Positions 45,678 through 63,956 of a DNA stretch of 64,000 nucleotides are shown here, piece after piece; position 1 is the first letter of the stretch, and every line of letters begins with the position of its first letter. The translations under genes and the position numbers were made by a program. The DNA is from Desulfomicrobium baculatum DSM 4028 (GTDB lineage: Bacteria > Desulfobacterota > Desulfovibrionia > Desulfovibrionales > Desulfomicrobiaceae), in assembly GCF_000023225.1 (NCBI RefSeq), contig NC_013173.1, forward strand, positions 2,978,501 through 3,042,500, given 5' to 3'. Under the pieces are notes generated by a model. The model did not search any database. It was not told the DNA's origin and worked only from the letters and a program-made list of their open reading frames with translations.

Positions 45678-45944
45678 ACCTTTCCACAAATCCTTGTCGA
45701 TTCAAGGCACGTCTAAGTCCTTGTTTTTCCTGGTTGAGACGGCCGAAATCAAACCAGCGCCCCTCGGTTCAATTCATGAAAACAACAGACCGCATACCGC
45801 CCCTGGCTCGAATCTGACGCTATAAACCTTGCCGAGAGTTACGCTCAAGCCCCCTCCCGCACACAAAGTCCACCTTTACGGTGATAAACCGCAATCAGCC
45901 TTCCCTCTTTTCCTTCAATCTTCTCGGTGATAGAAAAAATAATT
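45678..45944. other. Gene-free region between the toxin unit and the REC-PAS kinase
   Basis: 267 bp without a convincing gene. On the minus strand, 45845-45930 can be read as a short peptide ending KGGLCVREGA. It has no start codon with a ribosome-binding site, so it is at most a gene remnant. No good promoter was found. Confidence 0.45.
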
Positions 45945-47603
45945 ATGGAATCCAGCAGCAAATCCAGACCGTCCCACCGATCCATCCTCATCATCGAGGA
46001 CGAGGAATTCATCCGCCTGACCGTCGCCGACCATCTCAAGGATAATGGGCACAGCGCGGACGAGGCTGCAAGCGGAGCGGAGGGGCTGCGTCTGCTCGAC
46101 GTTGACCGCCACGAAACAGTGCTGCTTGATTTGCGACTCGGCGACATGGACGGGCATTCCATCCTGGCCGGAATTCGGGAGAAATCCGCCGAAATCCCGG
46201 TCATCATCGTTTCTGGAGCCGGCGACATGCACGACGTCATCAAGGCCTTGCGCGCCGGAGCGTCGGATTTTCTGACCAAGCCGATCCTCGATTTCGCCCT
46301 GCTTGACCTGGCCCTGGAAAAGGCCTGGGAACGCCTCGACCTGCTTCAGGAACGCCGTGAATATGCCCATGAGCTGGAAAGACGGGTCCTTGAACGAACC
46401 GCCGAACTGGCCGAGACCAATAGCAAGCTGCAGGAAAGCGAAGCTCTTTTTCGTCAGCTCGTGGAAAATATAAACGAAATATTTTGGCTCCAGCAGCTTG
46501 ATCCCCCGCGAATGCTGTATTTCAGCAAGGCCTGCGAAGGTATTCTCGGCGTGTCCAGGGATGTCGTAATGGATGACATCAGGAATCTGGTCAAACATAT
46601 CCACCCCGATGACTATGCTCGCGCCCGGGACTTCTTCCAGCTCAAAACTCTTGAAAACCCTGTCGATGAATACTTCAAGTTCATAAGGCCCGACGGAGAG
46701 ATTCGCTGGCTTCGCTCCAAGATATTCCCTATCGCGAGTGCCCACGGAATTTCCCCCCGCGTCGCGGGCATAACCGAAGACATAACCGAACGCATCGCTG
46801 CGGCCGAAAGGGACAAGGACAACCAGCGCAAGCTCATCCAGGCCGACAAGCTGATCTCGCTTGGTACCCTGGCGGCAGGGGTGGCTCACGAAATCAACAA
46901 CCCCAATCACCTGTTGCGACTGAATGCCCAGGCCGTGGAACAAATCTGGAGCCAGCTCCGGGAACAGTTTGACGTGTCCCTTCCTGAAGCCTCCGCCATA
47001 TCCATTGGCGGCATGACCATGGAACAGCTCGACACGGAAATCCCGCGCCTGCTGCGTGGCATGATCGGCGCTTCGGACCGCATCCGCGACATTGTCCAGC
47101 ACATGAAGGATTTCGCCCGCACGGATACCCAGGACACCGACCAGCCGGTCAACGTGGAAGATGTCCTGCGTGCCGCCGTCTCCCTGCTGCACAACAAGCT
47201 CAAAAACGCGACCGACCGCCTTGAGATCAGCATCGAGAGCGGCGTTCCGCCAGTGAAGGGAAGCCACCAACGCCTGGAGCAGGTTTTCATCAACCTGCTG
47301 ATGAACGCCGCCGAAGCCCTCCAGGACAAAAATGCAGGAATCCATGTTTGCCTGCGCAGACAGAGTCCGCATCAACTGGAGCTGACAATCCGCGACGAAG
47401 GGACAGGAATTACCGCGCAGGTGCTGGAACACATCTTCGACCCTTTCTTTACTACCAAACGCGACTGCGGCGGCCTCGGACTCGGACTTTCCATCAGCAA
47501 GACCATCATCGACGCCCACGGCGGGGAACTTAGCTTCGAGCCTGCGCAAAACGGAGGCACATTGGCTCGGGTGACGCTTCCGATAATGGAGACGAGGTCA
47601 TGA
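45945..47603 (+). CDS. Soluble REC–PAS–histidine kinase
   Basis: 552 residues from ATG at 45945; an in-frame GTG at 45927 is possible but neither has a good ribosome-binding site. The order is unusual, with the receiver first: residues 13-130 (IIEDEEFIRLTVADHL, Asp62, lysine in SDFLTKPI). A coiled coil, a PAS domain (LFRQLVENINEIFWLQQLD) and HisKA with His315 (GVAHEINNPNHLL) follow, then HATPase (NLLMNAAEALQDKN, GGLGLGLSISKT). There are no membrane helices, so it senses cytoplasmic cues or receives phosphoryl groups from elsewhere. It overlaps the next response regulator by 4 bp and is its likely cognate kinase. Confidence 0.9.
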   Translation: MESSSKSRPSHRSILIIEDEEFIRLTVADHLKDNGHSADEAASGAEGLRLLDVDRHETVLLDLRLGDMDGHSILAGIREKSAEIPVIIVSGAGDMHDVIKALRAGASDFLTKPILDFALLDLALEKAWERLDLLQERREYAHELERRVLERTAELAETNSKLQESEALFRQLVENINEIFWLQQLDPPRMLYFSKACEGILGVSRDVVMDDIRNLVKHIHPDDYARARDFFQLKTLENPVDEYFKFIRPDGEIRWLRSKIFPIASAHGISPRVAGITEDITERIAAAERDKDNQRKLIQADKLISLGTLAAGVAHEINNPNHLLRLNAQAVEQIWSQLREQFDVSLPEASAISIGGMTMEQLDTEIPRLLRGMIGASDRIRDIVQHMKDFARTDTQDTDQPVNVEDVLRAAVSLLHNKLKNATDRLEISIESGVPPVKGSHQRLEQVFINLLMNAAEALQDKNAGIHVCLRRQSPHQLELTIRDEGTGITAQVLEHIFDPFFTTKRDCGGLGLGLSISKTIIDAHGGELSFEPAQNGGTLARVTLPIMETRS

Positions 47604-49000
47604 ATCTTTACCCCGCAAACCCCGTTCTGTTGGTGGATGATGAAGAGGAAATCCTGTCCAGCCTGAGGGTTACGCTGGCCCTGGCCGGGATCACGAACGC
47701 CGTCCTCTGCGCCAGTGGCGCTGCGGCGGTGGACATCGCCCAAAAACGGGAAGTCGAGGCCGTGTTGCTGGACATACTCATGCCCGGACGCAAGGGTGAC
47801 GATATTCTCGAAGAGCTCCTGCATGCCCAGCCCGACCTGCCTGTCATCATGGTCACCGGCGTCGACGACGTGGACCTGGCCGTTTCCTGCATGCGTAAAG
47901 GGGCCTATGACTACATCCGCAAGCCCGCCGATTCGGAGCGCATCGTCTCGGCCCTGACCAGAGCCTTCGAACTGCGTACCATGCGAAGGGAACGCCGCAA
48001 TCTTTCCGCCGGATTCCTGGTACCGCCTCCGCACAAATCCGAAGCCTTCAATGAACTCATCACCTACAGCCCGGCCATGCTGCGCATCTTTCAGTACTGC
48101 GAGGCCATCGCCGCAAGCCCGGAGCCGGTGCTCATCATGGGGGAAACGGGGGTCGGCAAGGAGCTTCTGGCCAAGGCCATCCACGGGGCAAGCGCTCGCA
48201 AGGGAGAGTTCGTGGCCGTCAATGTGGCCGGACTTGACGAACAGGCCTTTTCCGACACTCTTTTCGGTCATGTCCGGGGCGCCTTCACCGGCGCGGACCG
48301 AGCACGCGGCGGGTTCATGGAACGGGCATCCGGGGGCACGCTCTTTCTCGATGAGATCGGGGACCTGCCCCTGCAAGCCCAGATCAAACTGTTGCGAGTC
48401 CTGCAGGAAAGGGAATTCTACCCCATGGGCTCAGACCGGCCCAAGCCCCTGACCGCCAGAATTATTTCAGCGACCAATCGGGCAGTTGATGAATTGAAAG
48501 ACGCTCAGCGCTTTCGCGCCGACTTTTACTTCCGCATCGCCACCCATTCCCTGACCATCCCCCCTTTGCGGCAACGGCCCGAAGACATTACCCCTCTGGC
48601 GGATCACTTTCTGGCACAAGCCGCCCGAACGTACGGGCGAGCCATCGAACACCCTTCCCAGGCGCTCGAACTCCTGCTCGGATACGCATTTCCGGGCAAT
48701 ATCCGGGAATTGCGGGGGCTAATCCTCGACATGGCAGGAAGATCCCAAAACGATCAACACTGCCTCGACGCCCTAAAGGAGCAACTGTCCCAAGCCCAGC
48801 CCGTCCTGCAAAGCTCCATGCCGGATCACTTGTTTTCAACCTTTCTGCGGCTGCCCACCCTGCAGGAAGGCTCCGAAGCCCTTGTCGCTGAAGCGCTGAA
48901 GCGCACCGAGGGCAATCAACGGCGCGCGGCCCAACTGCTGGGCATCACGCCGCAGGCCCTGAATTCACGCCTCAAACGCCGTTCGTCCTCATCCGCATAA
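47600..49000 (+). CDS. NtrC-type sigma54 response regulator
   Basis: 466 residues. The receiver has DDEEE and phospho-acceptor Asp58 ([14 protein letters not shown]). The AAA+ domain has Walker A GETGVGKE, the intact sigma54 loop GAFTGA (227-232) and Walker B LFLDEIGD. The C-terminal Fis-type HTH reads [20 protein letters not shown]. It overlaps the REC-PAS kinase by 4 bp. A sigma54-like promoter and two direct repeats lie in the gap downstream, making the HD-GYP/chemoreceptor genes its probable targets. Confidence 0.93.
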
Positions 49001-49216: not shown

Positions 49217-50311
49217 ATGGACACATCAAATCAAATAACAACGCCCACGGTCCTGCTCATCGACGATGAGCGAATGAACCGTCTGATCGTTGGCGACTAC
49301 CTCCGCGACAGCGGATACGCCGTTCTCGAAGCGGAATCGTCATCCGAGGGGCTGCGCATTTTCGATAATGCCCGGCCCGATATCGTCATCACCGACCTGC
49401 GCATGCCGGGAGGCGACGGGAACCAGGTCGTCACGCGGTTACAGAATGTCGCGCCCGACACACCGGTCATCATCATATCCGGAACAGCAAGCCTGGAAGA
49501 GGCGCTGTGCACGCTGCGCGAAGGAGCCAGCGATTTCATCACCAAACCGGTGCGGGAAATGGACCGCATCAAGCACGCCATCGAGGCGGCCATGAAAAAA
49601 GCGCATCTGAATCGGGAAAACCGCCTCGTCAAAACCGCCCTGGAAGACGCAATTCAACAACATACGCATGACTTGCGGGATCTCAACGCGAAACTCAAGA
49701 ATGCCCTTGAATCCACGGTCAACGCCCTGGGCGTCATCGTGGCCCAGAAGGACCCCTACACCGCCGGACACAACGATCGCGTGGCACGTATCGCCATGGC
49801 TCTGGGACATGCCATGGCCCTGCCCCAGAATCGCATCGAAACCCTGCGAGTAGCCGGGAACCTTCACGATATCGGCAAGATCAGCGTCCCGGAAGAAATT
49901 CTGAACAAGCCCGGCAGACTCACACCGGAAGAGTACGAACAGGTCAAGATCCATCCGGAAACAGGATTCGACATACTCAAAGACATCCCGTTCCATGGGC
50001 CGGTAGCTGAAATCGTACTCCAGCATCACGAGCGCTACGATGGCACGGGCTATCCGCGTGGACTCAAAGGGAACGAAACCCTGCTTGAAACCCGTATCCT
50101 CTCCGTGGCCGACATCTACGAAGCGCTCACCTCGGACCGCCCCTATCGACGAGGCCTTCCACACGAGCAGGTCGTGGCCCATATCGTCCGCGAAGCCGGG
50201 AAGCAGCTCTGTCCCCTCTGCGTATGCGCTTTCGTCGCCGCCAACAAATCCGGAGTCCTCTCCGCCATCGCTAATAGCGAACGCGCCGGACAATTCCCTG
50301 AGCGCCCATGA
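49217..50311 (+). CDS. Response regulator with HD-GYP c-di-GMP phosphodiesterase
   Basis: 364 residues, GGAGGT ribosome-binding site. The receiver (about 10-125) has LLIDDERMN and phospho-acceptor Asp60 ([14 protein letters not shown]). A coiled linker follows. The HD-GYP domain keeps [31 protein letters not shown] (His217-Asp218), [18 protein letters not shown] and [16 protein letters not shown], so all metal and GYP residues are present. It should hydrolyse c-di-GMP to GMP when activated. Beyond the domain the last ~25 residues are atypical and contain CPLC. It is the first gene after the sigma54 promoter, followed within 60 bp by chemoreceptors. Confidence 0.93.
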
Positions 50312-50366
50312 ACGCCAGGGGATTCATGAAAACCTTATCACGCACATCCAGTTACGGAGCACAATC

Positions 50367-52244
50367 ATGACTCTGCGCATCAAACTGTTTTCTATCGCCA
50401 TCACAGCTATCATCGGTTTTTTGTGTGTTTTCTTCGTCAACGAATACGGGACCCAAAGAAAGGACAAAGCGGCCCTGCTGCTTGAAGAAGCCACACATGT
50501 GCAAATTGGGATGCTGGAGGCACGCCGATCGGAAAAGGATTTCCTGGCCCGGAAAGATATGAAATACGAGGCAATTGTCCGCGAAACGGTGGCAAGAACC
50601 CTGGAGGAACTTGGCCATTTAAGCGAGGAACCGTCCCTGCGCGACAAGGCTGCCGTCATCAAGGGATTGATGAATGAATACCTGACCCATTTCTCATCGG
50701 TCGTCCAAAACGAACAGTTACTGGGCCTGAATGAAAATGAAGGTCTGACCGGCGAATTGCGGTCAAGCATACACAAAGTCGAAAAACTGATTGCCGATCG
50801 GAATAGCGATGCCTTGAGCGTAAGGATGCTGATGCTACGCCGCCTGGAAAAGGATTTCATGCTGCGCGGCGACATTAAGTACGTAGAGTCATTTCAAAAA
50901 GAAATGCTGCGCATGCGCAGGACGGCAGAAGATGCATTGGCTGATGATCCCCAAGCCATGCAGAGCATTAATGATCTTCTGGCAGCCTATGACCAATCGT
51001 TCACGGCCTATGTCAAAGAAGCGGCGGTCATAAAGGAAACGCAGGAACAGTTCCGTAAGATTATCAGAAAGACAGAACCCCTTATCGAGGAGCTTGCCTC
51101 AACGACGCACCAACTCATTACGGATGAAAAAAAATCCATCCGCCAGCTCACCATTATCGGAGTGCTGATCTTTTCGACCCTGACACTGGGAGTCATCGCC
51201 CTGGTGATGCGATCCATCACGGCCCCCTTGAACCATCTGGCCGCCCAGAGCCTTAAAGTCGCCCAAGGGGACTACACGGTCATCATCTCCTACAAGGTCA
51301 AGGATCCCATCGGGCATCTGGCGGACTCCATGAACATCATGATCGAACGGACCAAGGCCATGCTCGCCGAAATATCCGCCGCTACCCAGACTTTGGCCGC
51401 TTCCTCTTCCGAACTCTCCGCCATCTCCGGGCAAATGACTGCGGGCGCCGGCCAGACCGCAGCCATGGCCTCCACCGTCAACACCTCCTCCGAAGAGGTC
51501 AGCGAAAGCATGAACTCGGTTTCCGCAGCCATGGAGCAGGCCACCAACAACATAGGCACGGTGGCTGCGGCCGCCGAGGAAATGTCCGCCACCATCCAGG
51601 AAATTGCCCAGAACTCCGAACGCGCCAGAGCCACAACATCCAGCGCCGTCGACAAGGCCCGAGAAACCTCTGGCAAAGTCAATGAACTGGGCCTTGCGGC
51701 CAAGGAAATTTCCACCGTCACCGCAACCATCGCGGCCATTTCATCCCAGACCAACCTGCTGGCCTTAAACGCCACCATCGAGGCGGCCAGGGCCGGAGAA
51801 GCCGGACGAGGATTCGCGGTGGTCGCCAACGAGATCAAGGAACTCGCTCAGCAGACAGCCCGCGCCACAGAGGACATCCGCGAAAAAATCACGGACGTTC
51901 AAGACGTAACCACCCGAACCGTGCTTGAGATCACGGACATAACAGGACTCATCCACGAAATGAACGACATCATCGGCACCATCGCCACTGCCGTTGAGGA
52001 GCAGTCCGTAACCACCCGCGACATCGCCGAAAATGTGGGCCAGGCCTCCATGGGCATCACGGAAATCAACGAAAGCATCGCTTCCAGCTCGGCCATGACC
52101 AAGTCCATCAGCTCCGACATCTCACAAGTTCGCATGGCTTCCGACGAGATGAGCGTCAGCAGCCGCACCGTGCAAGAAAGCTCCACGGAGTTATCGCAGC
52201 TCGCAGAGCGTCTGGCGGATTTGGTTTCACAGTTCAAAATATAA
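50367..52244 (+). CDS. Methyl-accepting chemotaxis protein with HBM sensor
   Basis: 625 residues from ATG at 50367 (GGAG upstream). A first membrane helix (about 5-24) is followed by a helical periplasmic sensor, in which [16 protein letters not shown] and [15 protein letters not shown] are clear paired motifs of the helical bimodular (HBM) family. A second helix (about 270-290) and a HAMP follow, then the long cytoplasmic coiled coil with signalling tip [23 protein letters not shown] receptors in other species bind small organic acids, but the ligand here is unknown. The C-terminus ([10 protein letters not shown]) carries no obvious methylase-docking pentapeptide. Confidence 0.95.
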
Positions 52245-52292: not shown

Positions 52293-53957
52293 ATGCAATG
52301 GTTCATCAACATGCGCATCATGAACAAGCTTTTGCTTTCATTCAGCATCATTCTGTCCATCATGGCAGGCCTGGGCTGGTTCGCGAGCACCCAGATGTCC
52401 CTCGTCAATGACAAATCGACTGAAATCAGCGCTACCTGGCTCCCTAGCGTCCAGGCTTGCGGAGAGCTTAATTCATTAATCCTTGAGGTTCGCAACACGG
52501 AATATGGACATGCCATTTCCGAGAGCGAAGAAGATATGGCTCAATACGAAAAGCGTATCGAGCAATACCAGGTTGAAATACAAAATGTCAGGATCGCGTA
52601 TGAAAAACTTCCCAGCTTGGAAGAAGAGAGTCGCCTATACCAAGAATACAAGAATCATTGGGATCTCTATATAAAGGAAAACGCAGCAATAATAGCCCTT
52701 TCCCGAGCCAACAAGACTCAAGAAGCAGTCGAAAAGATGCGCGGAACATCGCGCACCGAATACTACGCAGCCAAGGAAGCCTTGGATAAAATCATTCAAA
52801 TCCAAAAAAACGCATCCGATGCCGCCAGCGCCGAGGCCGACACGATATACGCCCACGCCCGCACATCCATCATCGTCGCCAATATCATCGCCATCCTAAT
52901 AGGCCTCCTGGTGGCGTATCTCGTAGCCAGGGTCATCACTCGCCAATTGGGCACCGAACCCGGCGTCATCGCGTCTGTCGCGGAGCGGATATCAAGTGGA
53001 GACCTGACTATCTCCTTCAATGACACCACTCGCCATATCGGCGTCTATGCCGACATCAAACGGATGTGCGAACGCCTTCGCGAAATCGTGGCCGAGGTTC
53101 AGGGCGCATCTGAAAACGTAGCCTCGGGTTCCGAGGAAATGAGCGCCTCGGCCGAGCAGCTCTCCCAGGGTTCCACAGAGCAGGCCGCATCCGTGGAGGA
53201 AGTGTCCTCCAGCATGGAGCAGATGGCCTCCAATATTCGGCAAAACGCCGACAATGCCGCGCAGACGGAAAAGATCGCCCTCAAGGCCGCCCAGGACGCC
53301 GACAAGAGCGGCAAGACAGTGGTCCAGGCCGTGGACGCCATGAAGAAGATCGCCGAAAAAATCTCCATCGTCGAAGAGATCGCCCGGCAGACCAACCTCT
53401 TGGCCCTCAATGCCGCCATCGAGGCGGCCCGTGCCGGGGAACACGGCAAGGGCTTCGCCGTTGTCGCGGCCGAAGTCAGGAAGCTGGCCGAGCGCAGCGG
53501 CACGGCCGCGGCCGAGATCAGCGAGCTGTCTTCCTCCACCGTCAGCGTAGCCGATCAGGCCGGGCAGATGCTGGTCAAACTGGTCCCGGATATCCAGCGC
53601 ACGGCCGAACTGGTGCAGGAGATCTCCGCCGCATCGAACGAACAGAATGCGGGCGCGGAACAGATCAACAAGGCCTTGCAGCAGCTTGACCAGGTCATTC
53701 AGCAGAACGCTTCGGCCTCCGAAGAAATGGCCTCCACCTCCGAAGAACTGTCCAGCCAGGCCGAACAGCTGCAGAGCACCATCGCTTTCTTCCGTCTCGG
53801 CACCGATACTGGCAAGACCGTCCGTCAAGTAGCTCGCCAGACCAGGCCGCAGCCTGCCCGCAAAGCCCCCAAGGCCCTGGTTTCCAGAGCTCCCGCCGGC
53901 GGGCTGGCCCTGGACATGGGACGCGACGATGAAGACGACGAATTCGAACGCTTCTAA
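52293..53957 (+). CDS. Methyl-accepting chemotaxis protein with 4-helix sensor and C-terminal pentapeptide
   Basis: 554 residues, AAGGAG ribosome-binding site. Membrane helix (about 9-30), a four-helix-bundle sensor, second helix (about 192-212), HAMP, then the MCP signal domain with tip [20 protein letters not shown]. After the coiled coil a flexible segment leads to a very acidic end: [17 protein letters not shown] fits the aromatic-x-x-aromatic shape of CheR/CheB docking pentapeptides. Its role here is inferred, since neither enzyme is encoded nearby. It is linked to cheW by 19 bp. Confidence 0.94.
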
Positions 53958-53976: not shown

Positions 53977-54468
53977 ATGAATGACAACGCTATTCTGCAA
54001 TATCTGACCTTCGCCCTGGGCGATGAGGTTTTCGCCCTGGAGACCGGTTTCGTGCGCGAAGTCATCGAACTCGTGCCCGTGACCCGCATCCCCAAGACTC
54101 CGCCATTCCTGCGCGGCGTCATCAACCTGCGCGGCCACGCCGTGCCCGTGGTCGACCTGCGCATAAAGTTTGGCATGCCTTCGGCCCAGGACACGGTGAG
54201 CACCTGCATCATCATCGTGGATGTGGAGATCGAAGGCGAGCAGTGCCACATGGGTGCCATCGTCGATTCCGTGCTCGAAGTCTTCGAGATGACAAACGAC
54301 CAGATCACACCGCCGCCGCGCATGGGCACGTCCATCCGCGCCGACTTCATTCGGGGCATGGGCAAGCAGAACGAGGAATTCATCATGATCCTCGACATCG
54401 GCAAGGTCTTCTCCACCGAAGAGCTGTCCTTGCTGGAAGCCGCCCAATCCGGCGAAGCGGAAAATTGA
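53977..54468 (+). CDS. cheW: Chemotaxis coupling protein CheW
   Basis: 163 residues. The CheW fold is plain: YLTFALGDEVFALETGFVRE, PVTRIPKTPPFLRGVINLRG, AVPVVDLRIKFG and a C-terminal FIMILDIGKVFS. CheW bridges receptors and CheA in the signalling array. It has a GAGGA ribosome-binding site 11 bp before the ATG. It follows the second receptor and is separated from the STAS gene by a 115-bp gap. Confidence 0.96.
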   Translation: MNDNAILQYLTFALGDEVFALETGFVREVIELVPVTRIPKTPPFLRGVINLRGHAVPVVDLRIKFGMPSAQDTVSTCIIIVDVEIEGEQCHMGAIVDSVLEVFEMTNDQITPPPRMGTSIRADFIRGMGKQNEEFIMILDIGKVFSTEELSLLEAAQSGEAEN

Positions 54469-54583: not shown

Positions 54584-54901
54584 ATGTTTTCATGTACCAT
54601 CAAAGGCGCTCCGGAGCATCCGGTCGCCAAACTCTCCGGCAGTCTGACCCTGGAACACTCCAGAAAGATTCACACCGAACTGCTGGCTCTCCTCTCCCAG
54701 GCCGAGGTCATGACCATTGATCTGGGCGAGTCGGACAAATCGGACCTGTCCTTTATCCAGATGCTGCTCGCCCTGCTCAAGGATCCGGATAAAAAGATCC
54801 GTTTCGCGAACCTACCCGCACACCTGCTCGACAACGCTGCACGCCTCGGCGCGGACGCGTTCATGGCTGAACTCTCGAATCGAACGGGGAAAAGCGCATG
54901 A
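54584..54901 (+). CDS. STAS-domain protein (anti-sigma-antagonist-like)
   Basis: 105 residues with a STAS-like pattern: CTIKGAPEHPVAKLSGSLTL, a helix, VMTIDLGESDKSDLSFIQML and IRFANLPAHLLDNAARLG. Serine at the usual SpoIIAA phospho-position is plausibly in SDLSFIQ. STAS proteins bind partner kinases or act as phospho-switches. Its 4-bp overlap with cheY (ATGA) makes it part of the chemotaxis unit. Confidence 0.8.
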   Translation: MFSCTIKGAPEHPVAKLSGSLTLEHSRKIHTELLALLSQAEVMTIDLGESDKSDLSFIQMLLALLKDPDKKIRFANLPAHLLDNAARLGADAFMAELSNRTGKSA

Positions 54902-55260
54902 GCACGATCATCATGACTGTCGACGACTCGGCAAGCATTCGCCAGATGGTCAGTCTGACCCTGAAGGACGCCGGCTATGCCGTCATCGAAGCCTGCGACG
55001 GCAGGGACGCGCTGTCCAAGCTGTCCGGACCCGTGAGCCTGATCCTGACCGATCTGAACATGCCGGGCATGAACGGCATCGAACTGATCCGCGCCGTGCG
55101 CGCCACGCCCCAGTACAAGTTCACGCCCATCGTCATGCTGACCACGGAATCGCAGGCCTCCTCCAAAGAGGAAGGAAAGGCGGCCGGGGCCACCGGCTGG
55201 ATCGTCAAACCTTTCAAGCCCGATCAGCTTTTGGCAGTGGCCAAGAAACTGTTGCGATAA
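54898..55260 (+). CDS. cheY: CheY-type response regulator
   Basis: 120-residue stand-alone receiver: Asp9-Asp10 (TVDDSAS), phospho-acceptor Asp52 (LILTDLNMPGMNG), threonine in MLTTES and lysine in WIVKPFKPDQL. It is phosphorylated by CheA and would act on the flagellar switch or another output. It follows the STAS gene with an overlap and is 21 bp before cheA. Confidence 0.95.
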   Translation: MSTIIMTVDDSASIRQMVSLTLKDAGYAVIEACDGRDALSKLSGPVSLILTDLNMPGMNGIELIRAVRATPQYKFTPIVMLTTESQASSKEEGKAAGATGWIVKPFKPDQLLAVAKKLLR

Positions 55261-55281: not shown

Positions 55282-57330
55282 ATGTTCAGAGAAGAAATGC
55301 ACCGCCAGGCGTTCAAGGAAGAAGCCTTGGAGCTGTTGGGCGAACTGGAAATCTCGCTATTGGAGCTAGAGGCGGCCCCGGCCAACGACGAGGTCATCAA
55401 CCGAGTATTCCGCGCCATGCACACCATCAAGGGGTCCGGCGCCATGTTCGGTTTCGAGGACATCGCCTCCTTCACCCACGAGGTGGAAACGATCTTCGAT
55501 CTGGCCCGCACTGGCCGGATTGCCGTGACCAGAGAACTCCTGAGCCTGACGCTTTTGGCCAGGGACCACATCCTGGCCATGGTCGAAGGAACCGACTCGG
55601 ACACGCGGGCTGAAGAGGTCATCAAGGGGCTTAAGGCGCTCAACCCAAAATCCGTGTTTCCCGAGGCCACGCCCGTACGCGAACCGCTCACGTGCGCTCT
55701 GAACCCGGACCTGTGCACCTGGCGCATCCGCTTCGCTCCGCCCAAGAACGTGTTCATGAGCGGGACCAATCCGGCCTCTTTGCTGGAAGAGCTGTGCGAG
55801 ATGGGCGAGCATCACGTCATCATGCACGTCAAAGATATCCCGGGCCTGCCCCGGCTCAATCCCGAGGAATGCCTAGTGTGGTGGGACGTCATCCTGACCA
55901 CGGCCAGGGGCGAGGACGAGATCCGCGACGTTTTCATTTTCGTGGAGGAGGACAGCGCTCTGACCATCCAGATGGTCGGCAGCTGCCAGAACATCGACGA
56001 CGAGTCCTACAAGCTCATCGGCCAGATCCTGGTCGAGAAGAACGACATCACCAAGGACGCCCTCGAACGCATCCTGATCGAACGCAAGCCCATCGGGCAG
56101 CTTTTGTCCGAAGCGGGCCTGGTCAGCGCCAGCCAGGTCGAGGCGGCCCTGGCCGAACAGCAGGAGGTCAAGCGCCTCAAACAATCGGCCGGCGCCGAGC
56201 CGCAGACGTCGAGTATCCGCGTTCCGGCCCAGAAGCTCGACTACCTGGTCGATCTGGTCGGGGAACTGGTCACGGCCCAGGCCCGGCTGACCCAGTTCGC
56301 CAGCGAACAAAACGACGCGCGCCTGCAGGGCATCTCCGAGGAAATCGAGCGCCTTTCGGACGAACTGCGCGACAACACCCTGGGCATCCGCATGCTGCCC
56401 ATCGGCACCACCTTCACCCGCTTCAAGCGGCTGGTGCGCGACCTGTCCCAGGAACTGGGCAAGCGCATCACGCTCGAAACCCACGGCGAGGACACGGAGC
56501 TGGACAAGACCGTCATCGAGCGCCTGAACGACCCCCTGGTCCACCTGCTCCGGAACAGCATCGACCACGGCATCGAAAGCCCCGAGGAGCGCCAGGCCAA
56601 AGGCAAGAAGCCCGAGGGACGGATCGAGCTTTCGGCCGAGCATTCCGGAGGCGAGGTGCTCATCCGCATCATCGACGACGGCGCGGGCATAGACCCCGAC
56701 CGCATCCGGGCCAAGGCCGTGGAAAAAGGCATCATCGCACCGGACGCGCTGATTTCCGATAAAGACGCGCTCATGCTCATCTTCGCGCCGGGATTCTCCA
56801 CGGCCGAAAAGGTCACCAGCGTGTCGGGGCGGGGCGTTGGCATGGATGTGGTCAAGCGCAACATCGATGCCCTGCGCGGCCGCGTGTCCCTTGAGAGCGT
56901 CCCCGGACAGGGTACCACCATTTCCGTGCGCATCCCCCTGACCCTGGCCATCATCGACGGTTTGCAGGTCCAGGTCGAGGACAGCTATTTCATCATGCCC
57001 CTGTCCGCCGTGGAGGAATGCGTGGAACTGATCCGCAAGGATAGCGCCCGCGCCGATCTCATCAACCTGCGCGGCCAGATGGTGCCCTATGTCAGCCTGC
57101 GCGCCGGATTCGAAATTCCGGGACAAGCGCCGGAGATCGAGCAGATCGTGGTCTGCAACTCCCAGGGGCGGCGCGTCGGCATTGTCGTGGACCGGGTCAT
57201 CGGCGAGCACCAGACCGTCATCAAGAGCCTGGGCAAGGTCTACCAGGATGTGCGCGGCATTTCCGGCGCGACCATCAAGGGCGACGGCAGCATGGCGCTC
57301 ATCCTCGACATAACCGCCCTTGTGTCCTGA
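55282..57330 (+). CDS. cheA: Chemotaxis histidine kinase CheA with MshEN-like insert
   Basis: 682 residues. Hpt domain with phospho-acceptor His47 (RAMHTIKGSGAMFGFED). A P2-like region spans about 130-235. Residues about 245-296 hold two tandem G-x2-L-x5-I/V-x4-L/V-x3-L units, of which IGQLLSEAGLVSASQVEAAL is a near-perfect MshEN-type motif. Then come the dimerisation helices (DYLVDLVGELVTAQARL), the ATPase (LLRNSIDHGIES, SGRGVGMDVVKRNID) and the C-terminal CheW-like regulatory domain (QVEDSYFIMPLSAVEECV). It phosphorylates CheY in response to receptors. The insert might sense c-di-GMP; that is inference. Confidence 0.95.
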   Translation: MFREEMHRQAFKEEALELLGELEISLLELEAAPANDEVINRVFRAMHTIKGSGAMFGFEDIASFTHEVETIFDLARTGRIAVTRELLSLTLLARDHILAMVEGTDSDTRAEEVIKGLKALNPKSVFPEATPVREPLTCALNPDLCTWRIRFAPPKNVFMSGTNPASLLEELCEMGEHHVIMHVKDIPGLPRLNPEECLVWWDVILTTARGEDEIRDVFIFVEEDSALTIQMVGSCQNIDDESYKLIGQILVEKNDITKDALERILIERKPIGQLLSEAGLVSASQVEAALAEQQEVKRLKQSAGAEPQTSSIRVPAQKLDYLVDLVGELVTAQARLTQFASEQNDARLQGISEEIERLSDELRDNTLGIRMLPIGTTFTRFKRLVRDLSQELGKRITLETHGEDTELDKTVIERLNDPLVHLLRNSIDHGIESPEERQAKGKKPEGRIELSAEHSGGEVLIRIIDDGAGIDPDRIRAKAVEKGIIAPDALISDKDALMLIFAPGFSTAEKVTSVSGRGVGMDVVKRNIDALRGRVSLESVPGQGTTISVRIPLTLAIIDGLQVQVEDSYFIMPLSAVEECVELIRKDSARADLINLRGQMVPYVSLRAGFEIPGQAPEIEQIVVCNSQGRRVGIVVDRVIGEHQTVIKSLGKVYQDVRGISGATIKGDGSMALILDITALVS

Positions 57331-57364: not shown

Positions 57365-59866
57365 TCACGCGCCCGGGTTCAACGGCAGCGAAACGATGAA
57401 CTTGCTTCCCCGCCCCTCGCACGTCGTCGCGGTGAGATGCCCGTGATGATTGTTGGTGATGATGAAGTAGGACACCGAAAGCCCGAGCCCCGTCCCTTCC
57501 CCGACCTTCTTGGTGGTGAAGAACGGTTCGAATATGCGGGAGAGGTCCTTTCTGGGAATGCCCGGCCCGTTGTCCTCCACCTCGATCACCGCCCAATCCC
57601 GCATCTTTCTTGTGCGCAGGGTCAGCGTCGGGTTCTCCGTTCCGGCCCGGACCATGGCCTGGGCGGCATTGCGCACAAGGTTCAAGAGCACCTGTTCGAT
57701 TTCCGTGCCGACGCAGGGCACCAGCGGCAAATCGGGATCATACTCCCGGACAATATTCAATCTTCTGAAATCATAATGCTTCTTTAAATCAAAATCCTTG
57801 CCCGCCAACTCAAGGGCCTTGGACGCGATAGCATTCACGTCATTGGAGGAAAACGTCCGTTCGCTGCGCCGACTGAAGGACAACATGCTTGCCACGATAG
57901 CTGCAGCGCGCTCGCCCGCGTCGCGAATTCCCTGGAGATAGCGAAAAATGTTGCGTTCTTCGAGAAACATGGACAGCCGATGCAAGTCCAACTCGTACCG
58001 TTTGGCCGCCTCGATGTTGGGCCCCAAGTACGGATCGAGCCTGCGCACGATATTCTGCACGCCCTGCACGATGATGCCCAGGGGATTATTAATCTCGTGC
58101 GCCATCCCCGCCGCTAATCCACCCAGAGACTGCATCTTCTCCGTCTGGATCATGAACTGCTGCATGCGCTTCATCTCCCGCAGATCGCGAAGCACGGCAA
58201 AAACGAGTGACCTGCCATTGATGCCTATGACTTGGCATGAAAGCAGGCAGAGAATCTCTTCCCCGTCTTTCCTGTAGGCTGCGAACTCAAAGTCCCTGAT
58301 TATTTGGTGTTCATTCATCAACGCATACAGACGATCTCTCAAGGCAGGAGACTGATAGAGCCCGAGTTCAAGAGACGTCTTGCCCAGAACCTCCTCACGG
58401 GAAAATCCGAAAAGAGCGACAAAGGCATCGTTGACGTCCTGAATGCGCTGCGTATCCATCTCAAAAAGCACGATGGCGTCCGGCGAGAGCCGAAATATGC
58501 TCGCGAACTTTTCCTCGGACTGCCGCAACATGTCCTCGGCGGCCTTGCGGATGGTGATGTCCTCAATGGTACCGTCGAGATAGGCGGGACGGCCGGATTC
58601 GTCGAATTGCAAGGACGCGTTGATGACGGCGTAAAAAGGAGCCCCATCCTTGCGCTTGAACTCGATGTCCCGGCGGACTCCTTGCGGCGAAACGAGCAAC
58701 GATTCAATAAGCTCCTGGCGGGTGGAGGGATACGGGTAGAGATCCGTCTCCAGATTCCCCACCGAGGCAAGAAGATCGTTCCTGTCCCGGTATCCCAGCA
58801 TATGGGCGAGGGTGGGGTTGGCTTCCAGAAAGCGCCCCGTGAAGCTGGTACGGAAAATCCCTATGGGTGCGTTATTGAAAATATCCCGGTACTTCTCCTC
58901 GCTTTGCAGCAAAGCCCTTTCCGTACGCTTTGCCTCGGACACATCCTGTATGATTCCGAGCACCCGCCGCGGCGCATCCTGCGTTCTGGCAAACATTCGC
59001 CCATATTCAAAAACATCGGCGTACGTTCCATCCTTGCGCCGCAGACGGTACTCGATGACATACCTTTTCTGTTGCGACAACGCCTCTTCGAAAAGAGCTA
59101 TTGCTCTGTCTGCATCCTCTGGATGAAGCAACTCCGTCCAAACACTGAGGTTACCCTTCATCGCCTCCGGGTCATACCCCAGCACATCCAGCATGCTCCC
59201 ACTCCAGGTGAGAACGTCATTTTCCACATCATATTCATAAAAGGTCAGCCTGGCGGCCGCCGTGGTCAGATCGAATTTTTCCCGCCAGCGTTTGATGTCC
59301 TTTTCCGCCTCTTTGAGCGAGGTGACGTCCACGGCAGTGGATAAAATGCTGGCCTGCCCCCCGGCGGAAACCATGGCTGAAGAGAACAGCAGGTGCCTCA
59401 CATTTCCGTCAGGTCTGACCATCTGCGTTTCCATGTTGCTGAAACGGCCGTCCCGTTCAAGCATGTCCCTGAAGCGTTGTCTTTCGTCCTCAACTCCCGC
59501 AGCGAGTTCCGCCGCCGAAAGACTGAGCACCTCTTCACGCGAGAGCCCCCAACGGGACAAAAATGCTTTGTTGACATCCGCATACGTACCATCGAGTCGA
59601 TTGAAGGCGATGGAATATGGTGAATTATCGAAAATGGCTTGAAACTTCTCCTCGAATTCACGTTTCTCGCGTGACAGAACCTCAATTTTCTCATGGGCGG
59701 ACAGCAGTTCACGAGTTCGCGTGTCCAACGCATTCCTGGTTGACCGCAAACGGGTGCGGACAATCAAAAGCGCGGTCGCGCAAAATAGCGTAAGCACGGC
59801 AAGGAAAACAGGAAGAACGGCGTCAAAAAGCAGGGCAGGCGGGGAAACCGCGTTCATCGCGTTCAC
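57365..59866 (-). CDS. Multi-PAS sensor histidine kinase
   Basis: 833 residues. GTG at 59866 is chosen because GGAGGA lies 7 bp upstream; an in-frame TTG further up and an ATG nine bases inside are worse placed. One membrane helix (about 9-36) is followed by a coiled coil, then four PAS domains beginning at FQAIFDNSPYSIAFNRLDG, FDLTTAAARLTFYEYDVEND, YRDIFNNAPIGIFRTSFTG and FASIFRLSPDAIVLFEMDTQ. HisKA carries His590 (GMAHEINNPLGII). HATPase has NAAQAMVRA, DNGPGIPRKDLSRIF and GTGLGLSVSYF. Convergent with cheA. Its partner regulator is not adjacent unless it is the NtrC-type gene 207 bp upstream. Confidence 0.93.
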   Translation of the reverse strand: MNAMNAVSPPALLFDAVLPVFLAVLTLFCATALLIVRTRLRSTRNALDTRTRELLSAHEKIEVLSREKREFEEKFQAIFDNSPYSIAFNRLDGTYADVNKAFLSRWGLSREEVLSLSAAELAAGVEDERQRFRDMLERDGRFSNMETQMVRPDGNVRHLLFSSAMVSAGGQASILSTAVDVTSLKEAEKDIKRWREKFDLTTAAARLTFYEYDVENDVLTWSGSMLDVLGYDPEAMKGNLSVWTELLHPEDADRAIALFEEALSQQKRYVIEYRLRRKDGTYADVFEYGRMFARTQDAPRRVLGIIQDVSEAKRTERALLQSEEKYRDIFNNAPIGIFRTSFTGRFLEANPTLAHMLGYRDRNDLLASVGNLETDLYPYPSTRQELIESLLVSPQGVRRDIEFKRKDGAPFYAVINASLQFDESGRPAYLDGTIEDITIRKAAEDMLRQSEEKFASIFRLSPDAIVLFEMDTQRIQDVNDAFVALFGFSREEVLGKTSLELGLYQSPALRDRLYALMNEHQIIRDFEFAAYRKDGEEILCLLSCQVIGINGRSLVFAVLRDLREMKRMQQFMIQTEKMQSLGGLAAGMAHEINNPLGIIVQGVQNIVRRLDPYLGPNIEAAKRYELDLHRLSMFLEERNIFRYLQGIRDAGERAAAIVASMLSFSRRSERTFSSNDVNAIASKALELAGKDFDLKKHYDFRRLNIVREYDPDLPLVPCVGTEIEQVLLNLVRNAAQAMVRAGTENPTLTLRTRKMRDWAVIEVEDNGPGIPRKDLSRIFEPFFTTKKVGEGTGLGLSVSYFIITNNHHGHLTATTCEGRGSKFIVSLPLNPGA

Positions 59867-59880
59867 AGGCGAATCCTCCA

Positions 59881-59979
59881 ATCTCAAAACATAATTGAAG
59901 GATCAGACGAAAACCGTGCCGGCACGAACAACACGATTCGTGTCGGTCCGCCGGTAAAGAGAATTTCATGTTTTGAGAT
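59881..59979 (-). promoter_or_regulatory. Nested inverted repeats in the leader of the multi-PAS kinase
   Basis: ATCTCAAAACAT (59881-59892) and ATGTTTTGAGAT (59968-59979) are perfect 12-bp complements, 75 bp apart. The proximal arm directly abuts the Shine-Dalgarno. Inside lie CGTGCCGGCACG (59915-59926) and ACACGATTCGTGT (59931-59943), both palindromes. Operator or translation-control structure. Confidence 0.45.
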
Positions 59980-60072
59980 GGTTACACATACACGATGATG
60001 CGAACGAAGAAAACGGCGAAATAGCGACTGAGACCATCGGCAAGACAAAAAGGAAGGGGCGGAGCGAGTCCG

Positions 60073-61521
60073 TCAGTCCCGAAATCGCGCCGCGCTTTCG
60101 CCCATGCGCGAGAGGATTTTCTGCACGGCCACGCGGGACAGGCCTGAGACGCGGGCGGCTTCGGACACGTTGCCCTTGGTCTGGGCCAGGAGTTCATTTA
60201 CGTAGGATTGGGTGAAGACCGCCACCGCCTCGGCCTTGGCAACCTTGTACGGCCCAAGCGCAGTCCCGCCGCCGTTCATGTCCCCTCCCATGGGCACGGG
60301 CAGGCATCCGCCCTGCTGCACCATGCGCAGCAGATTCATGTCCACCCGCTCCGTGGTGGCAAAGACGGTCAGCCGGCGCACGAAATTCTGCAACTCGCGC
60401 ACGTTGCCGGGCCAGGGGTGGGCGGCCATCCAGTGCATGACCTCGGGGTCGACCTCTTTTTCGGCCAGCCCCATTTCGCGGCAGGCCGCCCGGAAAAAAT
60501 GCCCGGCCAGCAGGGGGATGTCCTCGGCCCTTTCGCGCAGGGGCGGCAGGGTGACGGTCAATACATTCAGACGATAGTACAGGTCTTCGCGAAAGGTCTT
60601 GGCCTGCATGAGGGCTTCGAGATCCTGGTTGGTGGAAGCGACCACGCGCACATTCACCCGCAAAGACTTGTTCGAGCCGACGGGCCGAACCTCCCCGTCC
60701 TGCATGACCCGCAGCAGCTTGGTCTGCACTGCCGGGGAAATATCACCGATTTCGTCCAGATGGATGGTGCCCTTGTCGGCCGCCGCGAAAAGGCCCTTGT
60801 GGTCACGGTCGGCCCCGGTGAAGGCGCCCTTGACGTGACCGAAGAGTTCGCTCTCCAGCAGGTTTTCGGGAATGGACGGACAGTTCACCGCCAGAAAGGG
60901 CCGGGAAGCGCGCACGCCAAGATGATGCACCATGCGGGCCACCAGCTCCTTGCCGGTGCCCGATTCGCCCCTGACCAGCACCGTGTACTCGGACTGGGCC
61001 ACGGCCGCGATGGTGCGCTTGAGTTGCCGCATGGCCGCGCCTTCCCCGACCAGCTCCCCGCCGCATTCCTTGCTGGCCAGGATCTGACGCAGACGATTGT
61101 TTTCTTCGAGCAGCCTGCTCCGCTCCAGTCCTTTCTCCACCACGCGAAAAAGCTGTTCCGGCTCGATGGGCTTGGTCAGAAAATCATAGGCCCCGGCCCT
61201 CAGGGCCTCCACCGCGGTCTCGATGGTTCCATAGGCCGTGAGCACGACCATGCTCAGATCCGGCTGCAGGCCGAGCGCCTGGGACAGAAGCTGCAGCCCG
61301 GTCATTTCAGGCATGCGCAAATCCGTGATCATGAGCTGCGCCGATTTGGCGGACAGGGCGAGGAGGGCTTCTTTTGCGCTGTGCACGGCCACCACGTCCA
61401 GGTCAGGAAAATGTCCGCCGACAAGTCTGGCCAGACCACGCGCGAAATCCACCTCATCGTCGACAATGACGACCCGGGCCCCAGCGACAGTGCGGGGCGA
61501 ACCTATGACATCCATGCTCAT
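60073..61521 (-). CDS. NtrC-type sigma54 response regulator
   Basis: 482 residues. Receiver with VDDEVDF and phospho-acceptor Asp67 (LMITDLRMPEMTG). AAA+ domain with GESGTGKE, the intact sigma54 loop GAFTGAD and Walker B IHLDEIGD. Fis-type HTH NVSEAARVSGLSRVAVQKIL near the C-terminus. The start overlaps the stop of the haem-binding kinase by 4 bp, so this is its cognate regulator. Targets are not evident, but redox or cytochrome genes are natural candidates. Confidence 0.94.
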   Translation of the reverse strand: MSMDVIGSPRTVAGARVVIVDDEVDFARGLARLVGGHFPDLDVVAVHSAKEALLALSAKSAQLMITDLRMPEMTGLQLLSQALGLQPDLSMVVLTAYGTIETAVEALRAGAYDFLTKPIEPEQLFRVVEKGLERSRLLEENNRLRQILASKECGGELVGEGAAMRQLKRTIAAVAQSEYTVLVRGESGTGKELVARMVHHLGVRASRPFLAVNCPSIPENLLESELFGHVKGAFTGADRDHKGLFAAADKGTIHLDEIGDISPAVQTKLLRVMQDGEVRPVGSNKSLRVNVRVVASTNQDLEALMQAKTFREDLYYRLNVLTVTLPPLRERAEDIPLLAGHFFRAACREMGLAEKEVDPEVMHWMAAHPWPGNVRELQNFVRRLTVFATTERVDMNLLRMVQQGGCLPVPMGGDMNGGGTALGPYKVAKAEAVAVFTQSYVNELLAQTKGNVSEAARVSGLSRVAVQKILSRMGESAARFRD

Positions 61522-63956
61522 TCTTTCCTCAGCTGCGTTGTATCCGACTCCGGATTGGTCACGGACGGCAGGAGCACCACAAAACGCGCCCCGCCCAGGT
61601 CCGAATGCTCCACGCGGACCTCTCCGCCCACATCCCTGGCCATGCCGTAGACCACGGCCAGGCCCAATCCGGTACCGGCGCCGATGGCCTTGGTCGAATA
61701 AAAGGGGTCGAAAATATGCGGCGCATCCGCCGCCGAGACACCCGGCCCGTTATCTTCCACCACAATGGCCACCCGCCCGTCCATGGGCGCGACCCGCACC
61801 ACGATCTCTCCATCCTCCTCGCCGACCGCGTCAAGGGCGTTGATGACCAGATTGCTCAGGACCTGCTCCAGCTCACCGATGCCCATGCGCACCAGCAAGG
61901 GCTCCGCAGGATGATCCACGCTCAGGCGCGCTCTCTTTTTGGCGGCCTGCACGGAAAAAACTTCGGAAACGGAAACCGCCACGCTGCAGGCATCGGCCGT
62001 GCCGGACCCTGCGGCCTTGGGGCGGGCAAAGTTGAGAAGTTCCTGCAGCACCCTCTGCGCCTGTCTGGTGTGACGCTCGATAATGTTCAGGTCGGATGCC
62101 TGCTGCGGATCGGAGATCGTCTGTCGCAGCAGTCCTGCGTAGCAGAGGATGACCCCGAGCGGGTTGTTGATCTCATGCGCCAGGCCCGCCGTGAGTTTGC
62201 CCACCGTGGCCATCTTCTCCGAATGCCAAACCTGGGAGCGCATGCGTTTCTCCATGGTCGTCTCGCGCACGTAGACGACCACGCGGTCCGTCTGTCCGTC
62301 GGAACTTCGCACCGGGTACATCGAAAGCGAAAAGGATCTGCCCGCGGGCAGTTCGACTTCGCGCAGATCCGGGGTTCCTCTGCGGATGGCTTCACCCATC
62401 GGACACCGCTGGGACTGCGGATCGAAAAAGATGGCCAGCATATTACCGTCCGTGCGTTCGCCGTCCGTCAATTCCGAGGTCAACTGACGGGCGGCCTGGT
62501 TCACGGTCAGCACGGCGCAGTTCGCATCCATGAGCGCCAGCGGATCGGTGATGCCTTCGACTATGGTCTCAAGCACGTTCATCTGCCGGAGCAGGCTGTC
62601 GATGGCCGTCAGATTTTCCGCCGCTGTGCCTAGCTGACGCCCGAGCGCCGTGAGCACCCGCTGGTCATGCCGTGCGGCCTCGGCTTCGGTGTCCCAGTAG
62701 AGGCAGAGAATGCCCTCGGCATTGCCGGAGCTCGACTCGACCGGCACGAAAACCCTGGCCCCCGATTGCAGGCAGGCACTGCCGGTCAAGACCTCCACCA
62801 TGTTCTCCGGCAGCTCCGGACTGGGCGACGATTCCGGCCAGACATAATAATTCCGGGAGACCATGGTGCAGACATAGGCGATACTGCGCGCCCCGAAACG
62901 GGTGCAGATCTGGGGCAGGGCCAGACTCCAGAGCTCGGAACGAGAGCCGCTGCGGCGCATGTCCTCCAGCAGGCGCACAAAAAGATGCACGTCCGCCTGC
63001 CGGGCTTCGGCCTCGTGAGAGAGGGCCTCGGTGCGCTCATCGACCATCTTGCGCAGATTCTCCGCATAATCCTGCAGCTGCCGCCGGACCTCGAAGAGAT
63101 GATTTCCCATCTGTTCCATGCCGTCGACCAGCTCCTCGATCTCGTCGCCCTGCTCCAGCCGGTGCAGGAGTTCAGAGCCTTCGGCATCGACCACGTTGCG
63201 CCTGAAAACACTGTTGAGCCGTTTCAGGTTATTGACCACCAGGACCCGAAACAAAAAATTTGTCGCGGAAAAGAAAAGCAGCGCGCCAAAGGCGAAAAAT
63301 GCGAAATAGGTCAGAATGGTCTGCTGCACACGCCCGACGCTGCTCTGCACGGAGATACCCACGAAATCGACTCCGGCGATGGAGTTCTCCTCCTTGCCGA
63401 ACCCCCGGCCCCCGTAAAGGGTCAGCAGTTCGGGCGGGGCGTCCTCGGGGCGGCCATGGCAATACATGCATCCGTCCTCGAAACGCACGGAGCGCACTTT
63501 CAGGAAATATCTTTCCCCGTCCATGGTCTTGTAGCCCTGCCACAGCTCCTGTTCGGGATTGGCCCGGAAATAGCGGATCAGCTCCCGTTCATGCGTGTTG
63601 GCTTCATAGGCGGGGTTGCGGGCGTCGATGGCCACGCGTCGATAGATGGTGCCACCTCGATCGTCGTTGATTGGCGACATGATGGTCCGCGAAATATAGG
63701 ATGAGGACATGGCCTCGATCACAAACGAGGCCGGCAGGCGCTCGTACATCGCCGGGCGGAGGACGTCGCGCACGTAGTGCTGGATGGAATCGACGTGGGC
63801 GAAGATGAGCATGGCCTTGTCCCGGACTTCCTCCTCCAGCACGTTTTTCATGTGCAGGTAAAAGCCTATGGAGAAGACAATACCCAAAAAAATGGAAGCC
63901 GCCAAAAGTCCGGACACGAATTTGGTCTGTATTTTTGATGGCTTGAAGATGTGCAT
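61518..63956 (-). CDS. Membrane histidine kinase with periplasmic c-haem sensor
   Basis: 812 residues. Helix (about 12-33), a periplasmic domain of ~180 residues, helix (about 214-235), HAMP-like region, coiled coil, GAF-like (about 330-450) and PAS (about 470-570), then HisKA with His594 (GLAHEINNPLGV) and HATPase. The periplasmic domain carries one CxxCH site, Cys163-Cys166-His167 in DGCMYCHG, preceded by YRRVAIDARNPAYEAN and YFRANPEQELWQ. This matches the Tll0287/DUF3365-like c-haem PAS sensors known from Geobacter kinases. It should report redox state or a gas through haem to the overlapping NtrC-type regulator. Confidence 0.92.
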   Translation of the reverse strand: MHIFKPSKIQTKFVSGLLAASIFLGIVFSIGFYLHMKNVLEEEVRDKAMLIFAHVDSIQHYVRDVLRPAMYERLPASFVIEAMSSSYISRTIMSPINDDRGGTIYRRVAIDARNPAYEANTHERELIRYFRANPEQELWQGYKTMDGERYFLKVRSVRFEDGCMYCHGRPEDAPPELLTLYGGRGFGKEENSIAGVDFVGISVQSSVGRVQQTILTYFAFFAFGALLFFSATNFLFRVLVVNNLKRLNSVFRRNVVDAEGSELLHRLEQGDEIEELVDGMEQMGNHLFEVRRQLQDYAENLRKMVDERTEALSHEAEARQADVHLFVRLLEDMRRSGSRSELWSLALPQICTRFGARSIAYVCTMVSRNYYVWPESSPSPELPENMVEVLTGSACLQSGARVFVPVESSSGNAEGILCLYWDTEAEAARHDQRVLTALGRQLGTAAENLTAIDSLLRQMNVLETIVEGITDPLALMDANCAVLTVNQAARQLTSELTDGERTDGNMLAIFFDPQSQRCPMGEAIRRGTPDLREVELPAGRSFSLSMYPVRSSDGQTDRVVVYVRETTMEKRMRSQVWHSEKMATVGKLTAGLAHEINNPLGVILCYAGLLRQTISDPQQASDLNIIERHTRQAQRVLQELLNFARPKAAGSGTADACSVAVSVSEVFSVQAAKKRARLSVDHPAEPLLVRMGIGELEQVLSNLVINALDAVGEEDGEIVVRVAPMDGRVAIVVEDNGPGVSAADAPHIFDPFYSTKAIGAGTGLGLAVVYGMARDVGGEVRVEHSDLGGARFVVLLPSVTNPESDTTQLRKE

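Follow-up and report, generated by a model that had tools for sequence, protein, structure and literature searches.

The CheA histidine kinase of Desulfomicrobium baculatum encoded in the 64,000-nucleotide stretch of genomic DNA analysed here (the window) contains, between its P2-like domain and its P3 dimerisation domain, a short module that is homologous to the N-subdomain of MshEN, is conserved in a family of CheA proteins, and has its two units separated by a single residue. The module is real, widespread and homologous, and comparison of related sequences suggests that it is likely to provide a c-di-GMP input in this family. The reading we favour, a compact MshEN-derived module that would bind c-di-GMP in a CheA subfamily and tune the kinase, with a worn half-site in D. 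baculatum, stands at about an even chance. Its stronger form, in which the 49-residue MshEN variant would make CheA itself the c-di-GMP receptor, gating the linker between P2 and P3 and setting kinase output, falls somewhat short of even, and direct c-di-GMP control of a CheA kinase, which the earlier note had raised, is put forward only tentatively.

As proposed, residues 245-293 would be the descendant of an MshEN N-subdomain, compacted into two helical hairpins of 24+1+24 residues. In the CheA family c-di-GMP would most likely be held between the two hairpins, although we infer both the ligand and the geometry. Binding could alter the geometry of the helix entering P3, which may in turn alter kinase activity or access of P1, and in this way an intracellular c-di-GMP input would be added to a kinase that is otherwise receptor-driven.

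Table 1. Features of the cheA gene, its product and the surrounding operon (positions in the window)
Feature	Position	Strand	Basis
Receiver + HD_5 (HD-GYP) protein	49217..50311	+	Pfam; HDIGK read in sequence
Methyl-accepting chemotaxis protein with HAMP	50367..52244 (likely start 50367, in ORF 50040-52244)	+	Pfam
Methyl-accepting chemotaxis protein, 4HB sensory module	52293..53957	+	Pfam
CheW	53977..54468	+	Pfam
STAS domain protein, in cheA operon	54584..54901	+	Pfam STAS_2
CheY-like single receiver domain protein, directly upstream of cheA	54898..55260	+	Pfam Response_reg
cheA gene, 682 aa	55282..57330	+	ORF
P1 / Hpt domain, residues 9-96	55306..55569	+	Pfam
P2-like alpha/beta domain, residues 145-234	55714..55983	+	predicted secondary structure and position; without Pfam match
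MshEN-like unit I, residues 245-268, LIGQILVEKNDITKDALERILIER	56014..56085	+	sequence, hhalign
One-residue spacer K269	56086..56088	+	5 or 7 residues in 20 MshEN domains compared
MshEN-like unit II, residues 270-293, PIGQLLSEAGLVSASQVEAALAEQ	56089..56160	+	sequence, hhalign
P3 dimerisation domain (H-kinase_dim), residues 310-366	56209..56379	+	Pfam
P4 HATPase_c, residues 417-554	56530..56943	+	Pfam
P5 CheW-like, residues 560-681	56959..57324	+	Pfam

The gene product is a CheA histidine kinase, with Hpt, H-kinase_dim, HATPase_c and CheW all above their Pfam cut-offs. The earlier note had described two tandem units, each with a G/L/I-V/L-V/L pattern, at about residues 245-296 between the Hpt/P2 and dimerisation domains; sequence and Pfam confirm this arrangement, and the units were found in the claimed spacing at L245-R268 (G247/L250/I256/L261/L265) and P270-Q293 (G272/L275/V281/V286/L290), so that the module reads LIGQILVEKNDITKDALERILIER - K - PIGQLLSEAGLVSASQVEAALAEQ. 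Sequence comparisons give good support for a relation to MshEN. Compared with PDB sequences, a 76-residue stretch matched the GSPII (MshEN-type) domains of Thermus PilF at an E-value of 1.1e-6, and a profile of 25 family members, D. baculatum CheA included, matched PilF (1.5e-21), MshE (5HTL; 2e-7) and PilB (7.5e-7), these being whole-sequence values, with no individual stretch of MshE passing alone. Aligned by hhalign to a profile of 20 MshEN N-subdomains of secretion-type ATPases, the CheA-module profile reached 98.4% probability (E 8e-15) with both units covered and with a lone gap of four residues, placed in the spacer; the result was 98.4% and 7.5e-15 when the D. baculatum row was removed, and probabilities in 30 column-shuffled controls were at most 3.4%. 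Homology of the module to the MshEN N-subdomain is taken as secure because it comes from these profile comparisons and not from regular-expression matches.

The regular expression was the relaxed 24-residue motif of Wang et al., loosened to admit L at position 1, N at position 10 and any residue at 11. It matched unit I only, and since unit II fails it at position 7 (Ser), there is no strict tandem match in the CheA. Shuffles of the 76-residue stretch matched a single motif in 2 of 20,000 cases; the corresponding tandem-motif shuffles (0/20,000) were dropped as evidence because the real protein is also without a strict tandem match. The published motif, RLGxx(LVI)(LVI)xxG(LVI)(LVI)xxxxLxxxLxxQ, does not occur in both 24-residue units: unit I departs from it with L, I, G at positions 1-3, N10, D11 and R24, and unit II with P1, I2, S7 and V17, while the family consensus is closer to the motif than are the D. 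baculatum units.

An alternative explanation could be an unrelated helical linker with a chance similarity to MshEN. Short helical repeats are common, there are weak Pfam matches to DUF4388 and others, a structural match and a strict tandem motif are both missing, but the profile evidence with its controls disfavours this explanation strongly and it would not account for conservation in CheAs across phyla; we consider it very improbable. Matches to DUF4388 (PF14332) were seen in 19 of the 25 members at E up to 1 (best 8.5e-5), and in the two members with coordinates a 28-residue part of that family was weakly matched by unit II. The DUF4388 family may possibly contain a single MshEN-like hairpin.

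The Pfam model PF05157 gave no match to D. baculatum CheA up to E 10 and is absent from the 23 Pfam families listed for the 25 members. In ATPase loci the PF05157 match starts after the second unit (of 31 segments, 28 show a unit pair on visual reading, the own-genome loci L001, L003 and L005 being those without a clear pair), and in the window's own ATPase it covers residues 130-215, directly after unit II. This silence was dropped as evidence against MshEN because the Pfam model begins downstream of the unit pair, which makes it uninformative. The ATPase in the window (29824-31704, + strand) is of the T2SSE type, with a true MshEN unit pair and a 7-residue spacer, and is followed by an HDOD gene at 31707-32558.

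The earlier note had proposed a survey of CheA proteins for the insert, and the insert proved to be widespread. Of 297 genomes of the phylum searched with the 76-residue stretch, 94 had matches at E 1e-3, and other proteins may be present among the weaker of these matches; among the best-scoring 30 loci, own locus included, which were those inspected, all 30 were CheAs with the module, with the P3 start after it and a GRGxGxD box, and 29 had an H-box-like motif. A scan of a genome collection with the exact peptide EILVERGD, a query that fixes unit I positions 4-11 in the loci retrieved, matched 268 stretches, of which 133 were confirmed and the best 80 kept. All 80 were CheAs with the module (78 carried an H-box-like motif, 76 a GRGxGxD box, and every locus had one or both). 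Their record titles are chiefly from the former Deltaproteobacteria, among them named Geobacter, Geotalea and Geomonas records; the others, many of them metagenome bins, include Nitrospirae, Spirochaetes, Brocadiaceae, Chitinivibrionia, Aestuariibacter and Alphaproteobacteria. The CheA reading frame is partial or short in six of the 80 loci (L045, L071, L072, L093, L112 and L115). Three of these reading frames (L045, L112 and L115) end at 428-480 residues inside longer contigs, perhaps through frameshifts or assembly errors in metagenome bins. Set A3 comprised 70 of the 80 loci, set A4 55 of the 74 full-length loci, and set A5 20 of the 31 ATPase segments, visual inspection having removed three that lacked a unit pair and eight similar segments.

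The D. baculatum genome (3,942,657 bases, one contig) has three H-kinase_dim matches, corresponding to the window CheA, a paralogue (L186, C1:1592702-1594756, - strand) that is 89% identical overall and 91% identical over the 76-residue stretch, and a third CheA (L039), in which reading of the sequence found no such units before P3; the stretch search matched two places in the genome. Likewise, by reading, no recognisable units precede P3 in L139, a second CheA of another genus of the same family (50% identical). The module is thus not obligatory in the CheA family, because L139 lacks recognisable units; L139 may have lost it or have something else in its place.

The spacer is one residue long in 80/80 genome-collection loci and in 31/31 aligned sequences. 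Among the 20 ATPase MshEN domains it is five residues in 15 and seven in five, and the published five-residue spacer (53-residue domain) was found neither in D. baculatum CheA nor in the inspected relatives. An AlphaFold model of the module built from 71 aligned sequences predicted helices at 246-252, 258-267, 271-277 and 283-302, covering positions 2-8 of each unit and those from 14 onwards, with block pLDDT of 92-97 and pTM of 0.52. In the full-length model the last module helix spans residues 283-304 and is joined to P3 by a linker of low confidence (305-312). The one-residue spacer may change how the hairpins pack. Foldseek of the module model against the PDB, run without a positive control, returned seven matches (best E 3.6) with no MshEN, and VIA-align over Foldseek's 13 chains, also without a positive control, gave none with Z of 2 or more and no MshEN. 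Because there was no positive control, these negatives neither refute nor support the fold. In the comparison with MshEN that the earlier note had called for, the four predicted helices correspond in position, and no structural match to MshEN was obtained.

A family-wide shortening of the spacer, together with a modelled last helix that leads towards the dimer helices, could also indicate a site formed between two CheA chains, in which the short spacer would pair hairpins of the two protomers and a ligand, c-di-GMP or another nucleotide, would bridge the dimer above P3. Nothing in this analysis points to another ligand, and we regard this arrangement as improbable. A site between the two hairpins of one chain remains our preferred reading.

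The accessible parts of Wang et al. (2016; PMC5013675) describe MshEN position 1 as stacking on guanine, whose edge is held by the amides of positions 3 and 4, Leu 2 with Leu 17 and Leu 21 of the other unit as a hydrophobic floor, and Gln 24 as holding ribose and phosphate. These positions were examined in 29 pattern-free relatives, which were not found via the motif pattern yet are best-scoring matches to the D. baculatum module. Unit I has K/R1 in 29, G3 in 29, L21 in 27 and Q24 in 24 (K/R in 4); unit II has R/K1 in 22, G3 in 29, V/I17 in 29, L21 in 27 and Q24 in 29. Because the contact residues are mostly kept, the CheA family looks fit to bind c-di-GMP, and for binding in the family we estimate somewhat better than an even chance. 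Wang et al. (2016; PMC5013675) also found that the isolated MshEN N-subdomain binds c-di-GMP without the C-subdomain, with a KD of 0.35 uM.

In D. baculatum CheA itself, 11 of the 12 published contact positions are consensus, conservative or with precedent, the residues that depart being, for unit I, L1, I2 and R24 and, for unit II, P1, I2 and V17. For position 1 the accessible text on binding PilF domains supplies precedents, with K and L in GSPII-B and P335 in GSPII-C. For Arg at position 24 of a binding domain, unlike L1 and P1, no precedent was found in the sources as far as they were accessible. Arg268 replaces the unit I Gln24 in D. baculatum CheA, and the other sequences read from the genus also have Arg there apart from L128, which retains R1, L2 and Q24; Lys or Arg occupies this position in 18/80 relatives. 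The consequences of such changes vary in the portions of the published work available: PilF GSPII-A, with units ending in His and Arg, shows no c-di-GMP binding, which became measurable in a trimmed construct after both were changed to Gln with one more change; a single Gln-to-Glu change in PilF GSPII-B caused a 158-fold loss; and a change of Gln32 in MshE cost at most fivefold in earlier work to which Wang et al. (PMC5013675) refer. Because Arg268 replaces the first-unit Gln, the affinity of D. baculatum CheA is likely to be reduced or lost, with the first half-site worn. Binding by this particular protein is possible rather than probable.

It is also possible, and we give this serious weight while placing it below an even chance, that MshEN ancestry was kept and the ligand lost, leaving a rigid helical connector or a docking surface for a protein such as CheY, P1 or an array partner. 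There are non-binding MshEN relatives on record, XpsE (Wang et al., 2016; PMC5013675) and the PilF GSPII-A domain described above; the short spacer is universal in the CheA sequences compared, Arg268 and Pro270 sit in the site of D. baculatum CheA, no MshEN structural match was obtained, and L139 does without recognisable units. In unit II, A20, L21, E23 and Q24 are identical in 80/80 loci (E23 in 28/29 of the pattern-free set), and E23 lies outside the contacts given in the accessible part of Wang et al. (2016). This explanation would not account for the exposed ligand contacts K/R1 and Q24, which are largely conserved across phyla but which a plain connector would not need. Asp at unit I position 11 (residue 255), where the MshEN motif is hydrophobic, is found in 27/29 pattern-free relatives.

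Whatever the ligand, the module seems to be still under selection in the genus, because its identity there is high: mean pairwise identity over 14 genus CheAs (14 of 18 CheA places, four partial ones being left out) is 90.3%, compared with 88.2% for P4, 79.6% for the P2-like domain and 93.3% for P3. Covariation offers weak evidence for an MshEN pocket. Covariation is striking between positions 1.17 and 2.2, a pair in contact in the MshEN pocket: Met is combined with Phe in 22/22 cases among 112 distinct sequences, and the pair ranks 32 of 1035, with relatedness corrected by weighting only. The other expected contact pairs, 1.2-2.17, 1.2-2.21 and 1.21-2.2, showed no covariation (ranks 332, 296 and 498 of 1035), and many of the top covarying pairs are variable positions, as expected from shared ancestry.

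The cheA operon has the order MCP, MCP, CheW, STAS, CheY, CheA. As the earlier note had observed, a receiver/HD-GYP gene, whose product is a probable c-di-GMP phosphodiesterase, lies in the same cluster, on the same strand and about 5 kb upstream of cheA. The paralogous operon (L186) has the order MCP, CheW, STAS, CheY, CheA, CheR, and a search of the 14 kb around it detected no HD-GYP gene. Among seven compared regions besides the window, an HD-GYP gene was present in two genus genomes (L188 and L189) and absent in five, one of which (L190) extends under 3 kb upstream of cheA, so that its absence there says little. Of the 80 relatives, 6 had HD-GYP and 5 had GGDEF in the vicinity, and one or the other was found for 9 of the 43 relatives flanked by 5 kb or more on each side; these counts come from phmmer (threshold 1e-6; one query for HD-GYP, three for GGDEF), are an undercount and have no insert-free control set. 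In the same 43, CheY was nearby in 40, CheR in 35, MCP in 34, CheB in 29 and CheW in 28. An HD-GYP neighbour does not generally accompany the module-bearing CheA family, and its adjacency was dropped as support because none was found beside the paralogue and c-di-GMP enzymes were detected near only 9/43 relatives. The window operon may have arisen by duplication and then acquired the HD-GYP and sensor genes. With 30 GGDEF matches in the genome, c-di-GMP is very likely made in D. baculatum, which according to the accessible part of its description (PMC3035215) is motile with a single polar flagellum. Judging from the sequence, the che operon sits in a dense signalling region: the genes flanking it at 45927-49000 and 57365-63956 resemble those for PAS-type histidine kinases and NtrC-type regulators.

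Signals from c-di-GMP reach chemotaxis via receptors, CheY-like proteins and adaptors. If our preferred reading is true, a sensor built into the kinase would tie chemosensory output to the choice of lifestyle with no additional protein needed, and receptor signals and the motile/sessile switch would meet in one protein. The named Geobacter, Geotalea and Geomonas members make the family directly testable, and the one-residue spacer raises the question of the minimum length of an MshEN site. The idea of MshEN in CheA is not new as such, having been named in print by Wang et al. (2016; PMC5013675), where the motif is associated with CheA, among other partners, in one clause. We did not find an earlier description of the compact one-residue-spacer form, its site before P3, its breadth or its genus-specific wear. 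Auxiliary CheA domains were surveyed by Berry et al. (2023; PMC10782961), in the main text of which MshEN, T2SSE, GspE and c-di-GMP do not occur, and in the portions of the open-licence literature covered we found no experiment testing whether a CheA binds c-di-GMP.

The association reported by Wang et al. (2016) resembles the present one in that MshEN occurs with CheA, and their CheAs may or may not belong to the spacer-1 family. Cbp1 (PMC6454048), in the part of its description available, is likewise a c-di-GMP input into a chemosensory pathway, but it is a PilZ chemoreceptor that acts at the receptor, whereas the CheA module is situated at the kinase. Relative to the MshEN/GSPII domains of V. 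cholerae MshE (5HTL) and T. thermophilus PilF, the module shares two 24-residue units, a hydrophobic residue and Gly at positions 2-3, hydrophobic residues at 6, 17 and 21, Gln at 24 (in D. baculatum, in unit II) and corresponding predicted helices. It differs in having a spacer of 1 rather than 5 (or 7) residues, no C-terminal subdomain, Asp at position 11 of unit I and, in D. baculatum CheA, also Arg at 24, and in lying inside a CheA instead of at the N-terminus of a secretion ATPase.
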